IMG/VR virus record: IMGVR_UViG_3300047359_000709
Span: 1 to 40,788 of that record
Strand: one strand, 5' to 3'
Source: a virus
DNA: 40,788 nucleotides
Shown here: piece by piece, positions 35,290 through 40,788 of the stretch
Layout: the number at the start of each line of letters is the position of its first letter
Numbering within the stretch: the stretch's first letter is position 1
Program-made: the position numbers and the translations under genes
Notes under the pieces: model-generated
What the model was told of the DNA's origin: nothing
The model's input: the letters and a program-made list of their open reading frames with translations, nothing else
The model's database searches: none

Positions 35290-35319
35290 TTGACCTCCAA
35301 TAATCTATTTTTATAAATA
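35290..35319 (+). promoter_or_regulatory. Overlapping sigma70-type and late promoter before regA
   Basis: Exact TATAAATA at 35312-35319. Its first six bases (TATAAA) also serve as a -10 for TTGACC at 35290-35295 with a 16-bp spacer. Both host-type and gp55-type polymerase could therefore start at nearly the same place. Confidence 0.7.
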
Positions 35320-35784: not shown

Positions 35785-35803
35785 AATTATTGAGGAATTG
35801 AGT

Positions 35804-36181
35804 ATGACCAATTTTATGAAAGTGAAAAAATTTATGGATACTTTTGGGCAAGAAGTGAAAAGTAAGCCAGAATATGCGGGGATTGATGTTTGTGCGTTGA
35901 GATACGAGTTAATTCGTGAAGAATTACAAGAGCTATATGATGCCATGGGTCAGAAAGATATGGTTGAAATTGCTGATGCGCTAACTGATTTATTGTATGT
36001 GGTATATGGGGCAGGACATTCTTTCGGGATCGACCTTGATGCTTGTTTTCAACATGTTCATGATTCCAATATGAGCAAGTTGGGCGAAGATGGCAAACCA
36101 ATATATCGTGAAGATGGGAAAATATTAAAAGGTCCAAATTATTGGGCGCCTGATATGAAACAATTTGTGGAGGAATCATGA
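35804..36181 (+). CDS. MazG-like nucleotide pyrophosphohydrolase
   Basis: 125 residues. An all-alpha NTP-pyrophosphatase pattern: RYELIREELQELYDAMGQKD with the EExxE metal-binding helix, then EIADALTDLLYVVYGAG with ExxD, and a tail NMSKLGEDGKPIYREDGKILKG as in PRA-PH/MazG-like phage proteins. It hydrolyses a nucleotide triphosphate, perhaps non-canonical dNTPs or (p)ppGpp. ATG at 35804 follows GAGGA. It begins the tightly packed run through the lysin and curli genes. Confidence 0.87.
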   Translation: MTNFMKVKKFMDTFGQEVKSKPEYAGIDVCALRYELIREELQELYDAMGQKDMVEIADALTDLLYVVYGAGHSFGIDLDACFQHVHDSNMSKLGEDGKPIYREDGKILKGPNYWAPDMKQFVEES

Positions 36182-36642
36182 AGTTATCAAAGAATTTTAC
36201 TCTAGCTGAGTTTACAAAAAGTCAAACTGCTGAGCGTAGAGGTATTGACAATACACCAACCGATGAGCATTTAGTGCGAGCAAGGTTGTTGTTTGAAAAT
36301 GTTGTACAAAAAGTTAGAGATCATTTTGGTCCAACTGTAATAAATAGTGGATATAGGGGTGCTGAGTTGAATGCTGCGGTTGGGGGAAGCGATCGCTCTC
36401 AACACTGTAAGGGGCAGGCTGCAGATATTGAAGTTCCAGGTGTTCCAAACTATGATTTAGCAGAATGGATTAAAGACAACTGTGACTTTGATCAGCTAAT
36501 ATTGGAAGGATATAAAGAAGGAATCCCAGACAGCGGTTGGGTTCATGTATCATATGTTGGACCTGATGAGAATAGGAAATCAATTCTAACTGCTGATTTT
36601 TCTTCTGGTAAAGTAAAATACAGTATGGGTCTACCAAAATAA
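36178..36642 (+). CDS. Endolysin, peptidase M15-type
   Basis: 154 residues. NSGYRGAELNAAVGGSDRSQHCKGQAADIE holds the zinc His and Asp (HxxxxxxD), and GWVHVSY the third ligand, as in M15 D-Ala-D-Ala peptidases and phage L-Ala-D-Glu endolysins. It should cut peptidoglycan stems. No signal peptide is seen, so it needs a holin or another route to the wall. ATGA overlap with the MazG-like gene; next come two small membrane proteins. Confidence 0.9.
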   Translation: MKLSKNFTLAEFTKSQTAERRGIDNTPTDEHLVRARLLFENVVQKVRDHFGPTVINSGYRGAELNAAVGGSDRSQHCKGQAADIEVPGVPNYDLAEWIKDNCDFDQLILEGYKEGIPDSGWVHVSYVGPDENRKSILTADFSSGKVKYSMGLPK

Positions 36643-36649
36643 AAAGAAT

Positions 36650-36928
36650 ATGGAAAGTTTTTTAGAAATCTTAGATGTTGGATTTCCTATAGCATCAGCG
36701 TTGGCTGGTGGGTTTTTCGTATTCTTGACATTAAGGTTTATTTTAGATGGAGCTTTGAGCGATATTAAAACTCAGCGAGGGTTTGTTAAATCGCTCGATA
36801 ATAGAATAAAGACCATGAATAATGAGTTAATTAGAATTGATTTATTGATAAGCCATGCTTTTGATATAAAGCCAGATCTAGATAGAATTGCTAGAGCTGA
36901 TGGTCAAAAAGACGCTAGGAAGGATTGA
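36650..36928 (+). CDS. Small membrane protein, holin candidate (first of a tandem pair)
   Basis: 92 residues: an N-terminal membrane helix (GFPIASALAGGFFVFLTLRFIL) followed by a charged helical tail with LDNRIKTMNNELIRIDLLIS. The tail resembles that of the next gene. Size, single membrane helix and place beside the endolysin fit a holin or spanin-like accessory, but homologues in marine T4-like phages are generally unassigned. Confidence 0.6.
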   Translation: MESFLEILDVGFPIASALAGGFFVFLTLRFILDGALSDIKTQRGFVKSLDNRIKTMNNELIRIDLLISHAFDIKPDLDRIARADGQKDARKD

Positions 36929-37188
36929 TGGAATTTGATATTGTCGATTTAATTAATACCTATGGATTTCCAATTATTGCTTGTATAGGGTTGGGGTATT
37001 TCATATATTACGTTTGGCAATGGGTTACTGAATCAGTTGATCCTGTGGTTGAAGAATCGCATATGACTTTGATTGCCCTGATAGACAGAGTCAGAATGTT
37101 AGATAATGATTTAATCAGAATAAAAACAAAATTAGATTTAATATTACAACAAAAAGAAAATGACAGCGATAGCGAGAGTCAAGAATAG
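36928..37188 (+). CDS. Small membrane protein, paralogue-like second member
   Basis: 86 residues: FPIIACIGLGYFIYYVWQWV forms a membrane helix; then LIALIDRVRMLDNDLIRIKTKLDLIL, which aligns by eye with LDNRIKTMNNELIRIDLL of the preceding protein. The ATG shares one base with the previous TGA. Together they may form a hetero-oligomeric membrane assembly linked to lysis, or to the curli channel genes that overlap it downstream. Confidence 0.6.
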   Translation: MEFDIVDLINTYGFPIIACIGLGYFIYYVWQWVTESVDPVVEESHMTLIALIDRVRMLDNDLIRIKTKLDLILQQKENDSDSESQE

Positions 37189-37669
37189 TTTAATCTTCCT
37201 TTTCTTCGTCTCTTCTTTGGTTGTTGGTTCAGAAATTGTTCATAAGTTTAAAAGTCCATCATTTAGTGGTATTGGTGCGGGCGCTCACTATTTGACAATT
37301 GAGAATCAAGAACACAGTAGAAAGAAAGCCATTGAAGATGCGCTCGAAGCAGCTAGGAAAGCCGCAGAAAGAGAAGCTGAAAATACAACACTTGCGAAAT
37401 TCATAAGGAATTTGGAAAGCAGGATCTACGCACAATTATCTAAACAGTTAGTTGATAATATGTTCAGCAACGAGGATGCTGTGACATTTGGTTCATTTAC
37501 TCTAGAAGGATCTGTTGTAACTTATGAAGTGCTGACCGCAGATAACGGTGAAGATTACATTCATATGCGTATTGTAGATAATCAAGGAACGGAAACTGTA
37601 ATCGAGATACCGATCGGAACAGGAAACTTTGGTACAACTGGTACTGGAGATATCGATGCGGGCGTTTAA
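37160..37669 (+). CDS. csgF: Curli assembly factor CsgF-like
   Basis: 169 residues; E. coli CsgF is 138. A signal peptide (charged start, LIFLFFVSSLVVG) is followed by HKFKSPSFSGIG, like the CsgF N-terminus FRNPNFGG that inserts into the CsgG channel. An extra Ala/Glu/Lys helical region (about residues 55-85) accounts for the added length. The end, VTFGSFTLEGSVVTYEVL then QGTETVIEIPIG, matches the CsgF C-domain (TTTIEVSGL). CsgF anchors curlin nucleation at the pore. Overlaps the membrane gene by 29 bases and csgG by 14. Confidence 0.85.
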   Translation: MTAIARVKNSLIFLFFVSSLVVGSEIVHKFKSPSFSGIGAGAHYLTIENQEHSRKKAIEDALEAARKAAEREAENTTLAKFIRNLESRIYAQLSKQLVDNMFSNEDAVTFGSFTLEGSVVTYEVLTADNGEDYIHMRIVDNQGTETVIEIPIGTGNFGTTGTGDIDAGV

Positions 37670-38510
37670 GCTACTGCCATTTTTGTTTTTGGTAGGTTGC
37701 GCTCAGATTCCGCAGTGGTCGGATCAGCCAGAACAGTGTTCTAATGATGAAGAATATCTTTGGGATAGATTTAAGTCTCGCAAATATATTTGCGTTGATC
37801 ATCCCGAAGTTGTTGAGCTGCCAGCGTATATACAATTATTGAATGTGCCACCAGCAAAAAAGAAACCAGTGGTTGCTGTTTATGGGTTTGCTGATAAAAC
37901 AGGACAAAGAAAGGCGAGGGAAGGTATAGCTGATTTTAGCACAGCGGTTACTCAGGGTGGAACTGAAATGCTAATTGATGCCCTAAAGACTGCTGGCGGT
38001 GGCACTTGGTTTAGGGTTGTTGAAAGGCAAGGGATTGATAACCTTATACGGGAGCGACAAATTATAAGAAGCGCTCGCCAAGAATATGCTGACGAGAAAT
38101 CGAAGAATGTTGGTCCACTTCTATTTGCTGGGATGATAATAGAAGGAGGTATTATTGGTTATGATTCAAACATTCAGACAGGAGGTCGAGGAGCAAGAAC
38201 ATTAGGAATTGGGTTTACTAGGCAATATCGTAAAGATGTTGTTACGGTTTCCATAAGAGCAGTTTCTGTTCTGACTGGAGAAGTTTTGTTAAATGTCCAA
38301 AGCAGAAAAACTATTTTGAGTTATGGTTCTGGTGGGGACTTATTTAGATTTTATGAACAGGGAACGCAATTGGTTGAGTATGAAGACGGAGTGGGTAATA
38401 ATGAGTCTGTGACATACGCAGTGCGTACTGCCATTGAGGCAGGCGTGCTAGAACTAATACATCAAGGGCACGATAGAGGCTTTTGGGTAGTTGATGAGGA
38501 TGTTGAGTAA
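37656..38510 (+). CDS. csgG: Curli secretion channel CsgG-like lipoprotein
   Basis: 284 residues; E. coli CsgG is 277. Lipobox FLVGC puts lipidation at Cys15. Matching CsgG segments: VVAVYGFADKTGQ, DFSTAV, WFRVVERQGIDNLIRERQIIR, IIEGGIIGYDSN, GGRGARTLGIG, TGEVLLNVQSRKTILSY, then IEAGVLELIHQGHDRGFW. CsgG forms a nonameric outer-membrane pore. At the constriction (Y51, N55, F56 in E. coli) the Phe is kept in DFSTAV, but Asn reads Asp and the Tyr position Glu or Gly. ATG at 37656 gives the signal peptide; earlier starts do not. Confidence 0.92.
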   Translation: MRAFKLLPFLFLVGCAQIPQWSDQPEQCSNDEEYLWDRFKSRKYICVDHPEVVELPAYIQLLNVPPAKKKPVVAVYGFADKTGQRKAREGIADFSTAVTQGGTEMLIDALKTAGGGTWFRVVERQGIDNLIRERQIIRSARQEYADEKSKNVGPLLFAGMIIEGGIIGYDSNIQTGGRGARTLGIGFTRQYRKDVVTVSIRAVSVLTGEVLLNVQSRKTILSYGSGGDLFRFYEQGTQLVEYEDGVGNNESVTYAVRTAIEAGVLELIHQGHDRGFWVVDEDVE

Positions 38511-38535
38511 ATATCCTCTAGGAGAAAAAAAGAAG

Positions 38536-39264
38536 ATGAATAGGTACTTAATAGGGCTGGTGAGTTTGTTTCTCACAAGTTTAGTTTTTGGTGCTGCTTC
38601 TGATGATAATGAAATTAATATAGAACAAAGCGGTGATACGCTAACAATTTATATTGATCAGGTTGGCTATGGTAACAAGATTGGTGCTGACGATTTCTCT
38701 TCATCGTCAAGCGCATCAGCTATTACTGGTTCTTCGTTGACTTTTGACATCGATCAAATCGGTAATGGAAACTTGTTGTTTGGTAGTTTGACAGCCGATA
38801 GTTCTACTTACAATATGAGTTGGACTGGCGACAGCAACTCATGGGATTGGAACATAGGTTATGTTGGTTCTGCTGATTCTACAACTGTTGATGTGGATAT
38901 CACGGGCGACAGTAACACTATGGACTTTGACCAAGGTTATGTTTCTAGCGCAGAAAGACTTGATTTAGATTTGACTGTCATCGGTTCTAGTAATGTTTTT
39001 GATGTTGATGTAGAAACTGACGATGTTACTTGGAACTTTGACATAACTGGTAGCTCTAATAATATAAACACACTTCAAAATGATGGATTCTATCAATCTC
39101 TCACAGTTGAGTTGGATGGCGATAGTGCTGATATTGATATAAACCAGATTAGTGGCACTTGTCCCACAGGCATTACCACATGTAAAGGTATTGTGACACT
39201 AGATGTGACATCTGATAATGCTACTATTCAAATCAATCAGAAAGATACAGCTAACGATAGTTAA
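38536..39264 (+). CDS. Curlin-like secreted repeat protein (first copy)
   Basis: 242 residues. Signal peptide MNRYLIGLVSLFLTSLVFGA, then degenerate curlin-type repeats of about 20-30 residues: SGDTLTIYIDQVGYGNKIG, GSSLTFDIDQIGNGN, GDSNSWDWNIGYVG, GDSNTMDFDQGYV and DSADIDINQISG. E. coli CsgA repeats are S-x5-QxGxGN-x5-Q; the Q-x-G-x-G-N core is retained in the first two. Rich in Asp, Ser and Thr, low in Lys and Arg. A Cys pair sits at GTCPTGITTCKG. Probably an extracellular amyloid-like subunit exported through the phage CsgG. GGAG upstream. Confidence 0.75.
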   Translation: MNRYLIGLVSLFLTSLVFGAASDDNEINIEQSGDTLTIYIDQVGYGNKIGADDFSSSSSASAITGSSLTFDIDQIGNGNLLFGSLTADSSTYNMSWTGDSNSWDWNIGYVGSADSTTVDVDITGDSNTMDFDQGYVSSAERLDLDLTVIGSSNVFDVDVETDDVTWNFDITGSSNNINTLQNDGFYQSLTVELDGDSADIDINQISGTCPTGITTCKGIVTLDVTSDNATIQINQKDTANDS

Positions 39265-40360
39265 TTCAATTCTACTCGTGGGAGTGGCTTCTGCTGCTCC
39301 CATTGGTGGAGTTGTAGAATCTACAGGAGTTGGTTCTTTAGAAAGAGAAACTTCTGATGTAGTTGAAGCGAAGGTTGGCGCAGAAATAAAATTAAACGAC
39401 ACTGCCCAAACAGCAAAAGGCAGGATGCTCATCAAGTTCTTAGATGACGCAGAATTATCCCTAATCGAACACACTAAAGTTTACATCGACAAAGTCTATT
39501 ACGACCCCAATCCCAGTAAATCTAAAATGGTCATGAAAATGGCGCTCGGAACTGCAAGATTTGCTTCTGGACGAATGGGTATGGTTCCCAAAAAAAATAT
39601 AGATATATCAACTCCAACTGCTACTATTGCTGTTCGTGGTACAGATTTCACAACCACAATTGACGAATTGGGAAGATCGCTGATCATTCTATTACCAGAT
39701 GAAAACGGAGAACCTTCTGGTGAAATACTGGTATCAAATGAGGCAGGTTCTATCACTCTTAAAGAAGCATATGCGGCAACTATGGTTTCCAGCATATCAA
39801 CCCCACCGACAATGAAGGTGGTGATTGAAAATATAACCCCATCAATAATTGATAATATGTTTATTGTCAATCCACCGCAGGAAGTGAGAAGGGCGATAGA
39901 AGAACAAGTTGCGGACGATCAACAATTTGATATGGGCGCTTTAGATATGGACTTTCTAGAATTTAATGAATTGGAAAAGGGCATTGATGAGTATTACAAA
40001 GATGACGAATATACAAGGTTGGATTATGATGCGCTGGGTGTTGATTTTCTAGTTGACCTTTTGGACGTTGTCGAAGAATTGATCAGAACTATGGACAATC
40101 TCGAAGATGTTCAAGAAGAATCTGGCTCTGGTGATATTAATTTAAAAGGAGCGATTTGGGGATATAATCAGGACAGTCAATACAATGTGTTTAAAGAAGA
40201 TGGCGGGATAGTATTCTATAGGAATGTTAATGGTGTTATTAATTTGAAATTTGCATCTGGGGGTTCAATAAGAGTTGATACCGATGTTGAGGGATATTCC
40301 GGAACAATTACCGCAGATGGGGGCGATGACATTCTTGTGGTCATCAAACAACAGAACTAA
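39218..40360 (+). CDS. Secreted FecR-domain protein
   Basis: 380 residues. Signal peptide (IVNSILLVGVASA, cleavage before APIG), then a FecR-type domain at about 40-190: AKVGAEIKLNDTAQTAKGRMLIKFLDDAELSL, MVMKMALGTARFASG and ISTPTATIAVRGTDFTTTI. An acidic helical stretch and a beta-rich end (INLKFASGGSIRVDTD) follow. In iron-uptake systems FecR is a sensor, but free secreted FecR domains occur in surface proteins. It overlaps the first curlin gene by 47 bases and lies between two curlin-like genes, so a role as adaptor or anchor of the fibre is inferred. Confidence 0.8.
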   Translation: MLLFKSIRKIQLTIVNSILLVGVASAAPIGGVVESTGVGSLERETSDVVEAKVGAEIKLNDTAQTAKGRMLIKFLDDAELSLIEHTKVYIDKVYYDPNPSKSKMVMKMALGTARFASGRMGMVPKKNIDISTPTATIAVRGTDFTTTIDELGRSLIILLPDENGEPSGEILVSNEAGSITLKEAYAATMVSSISTPPTMKVVIENITPSIIDNMFIVNPPQEVRRAIEEQVADDQQFDMGALDMDFLEFNELEKGIDEYYKDDEYTRLDYDALGVDFLVDLLDVVEELIRTMDNLEDVQEESGSGDINLKGAIWGYNQDSQYNVFKEDGGIVFYRNVNGVINLKFASGGSIRVDTDVEGYSGTITADGGDDILVVIKQQN

Positions 40361-40368
40361 ATATCGTT

Positions 40369-40788
40369 ATGAAGAAGTTACTATTATTTTTTATTTGCTC
40401 CTCTGTATTTGCTGATAATGAATTGACTATCAAGCAAGTGGGAGATAATTTTGATCTTACAGTGGATCAAGTCGGATATTCAAATGTAATCAGACGGTGG
40501 CAAACAACTGATACTGGTATTGATGGCGCAGATAATACTATAGAGATAAAACAATTTAAGGGTAGTGGCAGCGCAAGTGATAAAAATGTTTTAGAAATAA
40601 GAAAGATATCAGGAACTGGAAATAACTTCGCATTAGGGCAAGGATATGTTGTAGATTCGAATGGTAATTTTAGTTGGGATGGGGTTGAATACGGAGACAC
40701 ATTCGCGCATATCAATGTGACTGGCGACTACAATGATGTCACAATGCAACAAACAACAGGCGGTCAAGATCCTGGCGGTCATAGATAT
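40369..40788 (+). CDS. Curlin-like secreted repeat protein (second copy), cut by window end
   Basis: 140 residues are visible and the frame is open at the right edge. Signal peptide MKKLLLFFICSSVFA, then NELTIKQVGDNFDLTVDQVG, nearly the same layout as the start of the first curlin-like protein (NEINIEQSGD, IDQVGYGN). Later repeats: DNTIEIKQFKGSGS, NVLEIRKISGTGNN and GDYNDVTMQQTTGG. It may be the minor/nucleator (CsgB-like) or a second fibre subunit. Eight bases after the FecR gene. Confidence 0.75.
   Translation, partial: MKKLLLFFICSSVFADNELTIKQVGDNFDLTVDQVGYSNVIRRWQTTDTGIDGADNTIEIKQFKGSGSASDKNVLEIRKISGTGNNFALGQGYVVDSNGNFSWDGVEYGDTFAHINVTGDYNDVTMQQTTGGQDPGGHRY

Follow-up and report, generated by a model that had tools for sequence, protein, structure and literature searches.

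At the right end of the 40,788-nucleotide stretch analysed here (IMG/VR record IMGVR_UViG_3300047359_000709, hereafter the window), a marine phage carries a gene module that probably encodes a complete and working amyloid-secretion system deployed late in infection, with a FecR-domain protein and, expected beyond the contig end, an adenylate cyclase as putative sensors and two small membrane proteins, here called TM1 and TM2, as putative partners. The portal, sheath and capsid genes assign the source virus to the T4-like phages, and its capsid protein shares about 64% identity with those of Pelagibacter phage HTVC008M and Methylophilales phage Melnitz. Judging by its cut last gene, the 40.8-kb virus record corresponds to a genome fragment, and because the contig stops within the second curlin gene, the sequence to the right of the module lies out of view. 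A previous sequence-only reading had placed curli-type genes at positions 37160–40788. All of them were recovered there, with CsgF, CsgG, curlin repeats in two proteins and FecR passing the curated Pfam cut-offs, and the proposal that the phage encodes both a type VIII secretion channel and its substrates was thus confirmed. The reported gene overlaps of 29, 14 and 47 bases were exact on recomputation, as was the unbroken run of genes following the endolysin and two membrane proteins, with gaps of -47 to +25 nt from 35395 to the window end. Two start codons were revised, that of the first curlin to ATG 38536 behind an AGGAG motif, instead of TTG 38491, and that of TM2 to ATG 36928.

All genes of the module are on the + strand. 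CsgF (37160–37669, Pfam E-value 2e-14) contains the conserved stretch FKNPSFSG...HYLTIENQE, while CsgG (37656–38510, Pfam E-value 2e-52) matches the solved E. coli CsgG at an E-value of 3e-66 over profile positions 54–282, which covers the entire channel domain, and possesses a lipobox (FLVGC) whose cysteine is nearly invariant among relatives. The first curlin (38536–39264, CsgA/B-like, Pfam Curlin_rpt E-value 2e-4) and the second curlin (40369–40788, cut by the contig end, Curlin_rpt E-value 6e-5) both start with signal-peptide-like stretches, as do CsgF and the FecR-domain protein. In an alignment of 24 curlin sequences, many fully conserved columns correspond to the Gln, Gly and Asn residues of curlin repeats, and in the first curlin the G..N, hxhxQ and QxG..N motifs are more frequent than in shuffled sequences (p 0.002–0.004). 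Structure prediction folded this protein into successive beta strands (pLDDT 81). Foldseek retrieved no significant solved match for the model in the PDB (best E-value 0.14), so the assignment as an amyloid is based on motifs and homology. With a CsgG, a CsgF and curlins bearing signal peptides, the set is, as far as sequence allows, a type VIII (curli) secretion system. It shares the CsgG channel, CsgF and curlin-repeat substrates with the E. coli csgDEFG/csgBAC genes, but the phage module has FecR, cyclase and TM1/TM2 in addition, all in one operon, whereas CsgE, CsgD and CsgC were not seen in the window. The sequence-only reading had likewise reported CsgE and CsgD as not visible, and neither was found up to the point where the window stops inside the second curlin. 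The type VIII assignment would stand even if CsgE were missing, as these phages and Alphaproteobacterial systems have been described as lacking it (PMC9599517).

The FecR-domain protein (39218–40360, Pfam FecR E-value 4e-7) was modeled with a mean pLDDT of 73 as a signal-like helix (residues 2–20) and a FecR domain, followed by a low-confidence helical linker and a C-terminal end of six short strands. A Foldseek search with this model matched PupR, an anti-sigma regulator, at its periplasmic signalling domain (E-value 4e-4). No cytoplasmic anti-sigma domain was detected, nor any Pfam domain besides FecR, so the protein departs from the architecture of the FecR iron-citrate anti-sigma regulator and finds no support as an iron regulator, but could plausibly be a periplasmic sensor. 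This bears on the proposal (PMC7029224, PMC9599517) that the module provides an open channel through which large nutrients, siderophores or cobalamin enter the cell, with FecR as iron regulator. No CsgE gate is visible, in keeping with an open channel, yet the signal peptide and periplasmic FecR domain, without a cytoplasmic anti-sigma domain, fit it poorly, and it does not account for the conserved secreted curlins; we therefore judge it very unlikely. The C-terminal end of the FecR protein could itself be curlin-like. An [IVL]x[IVL]xQ motif followed by at most four residues terminates 108 of 114 FecR homologues, which are related and hence not 108 independent cases, against 27 of 1259 other proteins. 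A curlin profile run on the FecR C-termini gave a top score of 12.1 bits, compared with 8.2 in shuffled controls, and 16 of the 114 exceeded the 1% control level. Internal repeat motifs were not enriched in the FecR protein of the window, and we consider the resemblance as suggestive only.

To delimit the module, we turned to the 80 viral contigs retrieved by a search for CsgG relatives, which with the window make 81 gene sets. The gene order TM1-TM2-CsgF-CsgG-curlin-FecR-curlin is constant across the 80 contigs. CsgF is present in all 81 sets, TM1 and TM2 in 77, FecR in 76 and the second curlin in 54, the missing genes being mostly at contig ends. In 51 of the 80 contigs the second curlin is followed by a protein with a median length of 614 amino acids, which carries CHASE2 and class III cyclase domains. 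Among 81 cyclase homologues, the two metal-binding Asp residues are conserved in 81/81 and 81/81, the adenine-specifying Lys in 80/81 and the transition-state Arg in 81/81, the other transition-state position being occupied by Asn (58) or Ser (23). By these residues, the relatives' protein is predicted to be a class III adenylate cyclase with a CHASE2 domain. We thus define the conserved unit, on gene content and order, as TM1-TM2-CsgF-CsgG-curlin-FecR-curlin-CHASE2 adenylate cyclase, and in the phage studied here the cyclase should be the next gene to the right, beyond the contig end. Some very large viral contigs, of 357 kb (L234), 349 kb (L238) and 236 kb (L193), carry the TM1/TM2, curli and cyclase genes as well, the two largest with a capsid match just about 40% identical. 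In some relatives, proteins resembling by eye an iron-sulfur scaffold (NifU/IscU-like) and IscA adjoin the module (L025:11673-12125, L043:10473-10814).

The unit opens with TM1 (36650–36928) and its paralogue TM2 (36928–37188), both assigned to phrog_18771, TM1 having no Pfam family. Each is a single-pass membrane protein whose conserved tail is probably a coiled coil; their length is 86–92 amino acids here and about 84–107 among relatives. The sequence-only reading had grouped two membrane proteins preceding csgF with the lysis genes; the proteins are present, but their distribution in relatives places them with the curli unit and not with the endolysin. TM2 was found in 6 of 50,697 phage records, all six of which contain CsgG, and in a search seeded with TM2, 73 of 80 viral loci hold another type VIII secretion or cyclase gene, the other seven mostly ending too early to judge; at many of these loci the cyclase is on the opposite strand. 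TM1 and TM2 are absent from three bacterial CsgF-CsgG-curlin-FecR-cyclase operons. Taken together, the occurrence of TM1 and TM2 identifies them, on sequence grounds, as phage-only membrane proteins that travel with curli genes. In a previous study of pelagiphages, one or two genes ahead of csgF were labelled 'histidine kinase' (PMC9599517). No kinase family was found in TM1 or TM2 with Pfam even at an E-value of 1, including HisKA and HATPase, and the position of the published label suggests that it refers to TM1/TM2 and is probably a misannotation. The 023Pt terminase, a podovirus hallmark, was not found in 20 module-bearing records in a search run without a positive control, and MW574966 has no annotated module in the 45 kb viewed of its 59.8 kb. 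In one contig, TM1-TM2 are followed, instead of by csgF, by a probably secreted 635-amino-acid protein of unknown kind (L220:4236-6143).

In the window, an M15-peptidase endolysin (36178–36642, Pfam Peptidase_M15 E-value 2e-21) ends 7 nt before TM1. It is preceded by a MazG-like nucleotide pyrophosphohydrolase (35798–36181) and by a conserved phage protein (35395–35784), here the first gene of the putative late operon, with a homologue upstream of the module in 19 of the 80 contigs. Such a layout, with an endolysin next to TM1 in the same late operon, recalls the pinholin or lysis-pore role proposed for the Melnitz module (PMC9004378), in which CsgG/CsgF would be repurposed as a pinholin- or gated-pore-like device with TM1/TM2 as holins and the endolysin as partner. 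That role is also in line with a GH24 lysozyme upstream of TM1 in 21 of 66 assessable relatives, and with weak matches of TM2 to a holin family (phrog_4898, E-value 6e-4 over 18 residues) and to YvrJ. However, at the 66 loci with enough upstream sequence, an M15 endolysin is present in 3 (the window, L003 and L005), a GH24 lysozyme unrelated to it in 21, and neither in 42, leaving 24 loci linked to a lysis gene and 42 not. Two relatives on long contigs have their M15 endolysin at a distance of about 31 kb or more from CsgG, and in a third the lysozyme is 9 kb downstream. The endolysin thus appears to be a neighbour outside the conserved curli unit, and its loose linkage disfavours the lysis-pore idea. 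Moreover, a pore alone would leave the two conserved curlin substrates unexplained, the Melnitz proposal assumed that curlins were missing whereas record MZ577097 annotates two curlin-repeat proteins, and no annotated phage with a TM2 homologue lacks CsgG, unlike general holins. A lysis device is accordingly improbable, and TM1/TM2 as holins of the endolysin were rejected because their distribution tracks curli genes, not endolysins.

The timing of the module was addressed through the octamer TATAAATA, the T4-type late promoter, a motif also taken as late promoter in an earlier study (PMC9004378). Nine exact copies occur in the window, all on the + strand (1422, 6313, 8864, 10401, 12113, 13243, 14760, 25700 and 35312), where 2.75 would be expected on both strands, and most precede structural genes (portal, scaffold, capsid and sheath). 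The last copy (35312–35319), a match to the T4-type late consensus, is the probable start of one operon that appears to comprise both the endolysin and the curli genes. Terminator-like matches on the + strand fall within coding sequence. The earlier statement that the curli cluster lies inside a lysis operon is therefore accurate for this phage, where the endolysin is co-linear and shares the late promoter, but not as an intrinsic tie, given the 42 loci without an upstream endolysin. Among relatives, 44 of 76 loci have the octamer within the 70 bases ahead of TM1, where chance predicts about 1% per locus, or about 0.8 in total; these loci are on related contigs and are not independent events, although they include several sequence contexts and two main spacings. 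In several relatives the octamer comes right behind a terminator-like hairpin with a T run, which together with the 44 loci indicates that a separate late unit often begins with TM1. The curli module thus appears, from promoter position, to be switched on late in infection. In L015, L016, L023, L040, L067 and others, the start codon of TM1 comes 13 bases after the octamer, and the resulting mRNAs would be almost leaderless.

We propose that CsgG would form the outer-membrane channel with CsgF seated on it, and that both curlins would be exported and polymerise as amyloid on the infected cell. The pair TM1 and TM2 may act as phage-specific inner-membrane partners, while the periplasmic FecR protein and the CHASE2-type adenylate cyclase could be sensors or reporters of envelope state. 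Gene identities and order, late-promoter position, and conserved substrate and catalytic residues are read from the sequence, and from them we infer fibre production, a FecR-cyclase circuit and the gain for the phage. A more detailed scheme, in which TM1/TM2 are a pair needed for secretion and FecR, whose C-terminal end would be curlin-like, docks on periplasmic curlins and signals through the cyclase, so that cAMP reports amyloid export, is speculative and rather doubtful. What counts against a working secretion system is that neither cytograms nor TEM revealed clumping of Melnitz-infected cultures under the conditions of that study (PMC9004378), that no CsgE gate was seen, that the late promoters are assigned by consensus match, and that the cyclase is outside the window.

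The late-type promoter makes a gain near or after lysis the most likely, when amyloid could hold neighbouring hosts, debris and progeny together or hide the receptors of spent cells; a lysis pore, or a block on superinfection early in infection, would be less probable. The benefits listed in the sequence-only reading (superinfection block, cells held together, aid to lysis) are all published hypotheses. One of them, an amyloid coat that hides receptors from competing phages (PMC9599517), has in its favour that a surface coat is the expected product of the genes present, while the late promoter type argues against it. Superinfection exclusion usually acts early. Since latent periods in these slow-growing hosts are long, we regard this reading, including a late form of exclusion, as possible, though less likely than not. 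If a late amyloid coat is indeed formed on infected ocean bacteria, viruses would give free-living plankton a new stickiness, with consequences for plankton aggregation and gene exchange. The late-type promoters favour an end-of-infection role, and the details added here make the question testable, TM1/TM2, small and probably mislabelled, being a defined deletion target.

The full set is not new, as it was published for pelagimyophages (PMC7029224), Melnitz (PMC9004378) and podo- and myo-pelagiphages (PMC9599517). The statement in the sequence-only reading that csgG/csgF genes have been noted in some marine T4-like phages was correct, and the complete set with FecR and two curlins is on record (PMC9599517; Melnitz MZ577097); the possibility that it was undescribed was rejected, PMC9599517 already reporting it. 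What we add are the boundaries of the unit, its late timing, the TM1/TM2 association and two probable misannotations. The pelagiphage module has CsgF, CsgG, curlin, FecR, curlin and adenylate cyclase in identical order (PMC9599517), whereas the window phage has the M15 endolysin and MazG ahead in the same late operon and, before csgF, single-pass proteins of 86–92 amino acids without a kinase domain. Melnitz (EXVC044M, MZ577097) and HTVC008M (NC_020484) share the order and TM1/TM2, CsgF, curlin, FecR protein and cyclase, with a further protein in the second-curlin slot; they are distant, their CsgG being 41–46% identical to that of the window over the alignment, and unlike in the window no endolysin is annotated beside the module in either stretch.

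Concerning its origin, an Alphaproteobacterial source was proposed with a published tree (PMC9599517), and FecR and cyclase were described there as outside canonical bacterial operons. They do occur in some bacterial type VIII operons, as two Caulobacteraceae MAGs (L090, L091) and Hyphomonas sp. TMED17 (L092) carry them. These Caulobacterales operons, on chromosomal contigs and in bacterial surroundings, keep the order CsgF-CsgG-curlin(s)-FecR-CHASE2 cyclase, but lack TM1/TM2 and differ in curlin numbers and sizes; the Hyphomonas contig (705 kb) has TonB-receptor and metabolic genes flanking the operon. By content and order, they agree with the proposed origin. SAR11 and OM43, host groups of related phages, have no curli systems (PMC9004378, PMC9599517), as would be expected if the genes were non-functional passengers, a view made hardly credible by the intact reading frames, the order kept in 80 contigs, the conserved catalytic and repeat residues and the expression reported in metatranscriptomes (PMC9599517). 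Curli-bearing phage-like contigs were also found in MAGs labelled Sphingobacteriales, Synechococcus and Pelagibacter (L084, L086, L088 and L096), likely binned viral sequence, and a CsgG match was found in a 1499-base unannotated record of Salmonella phage S.Kent 1-2-1 (OR851715.1), possibly host DNA.
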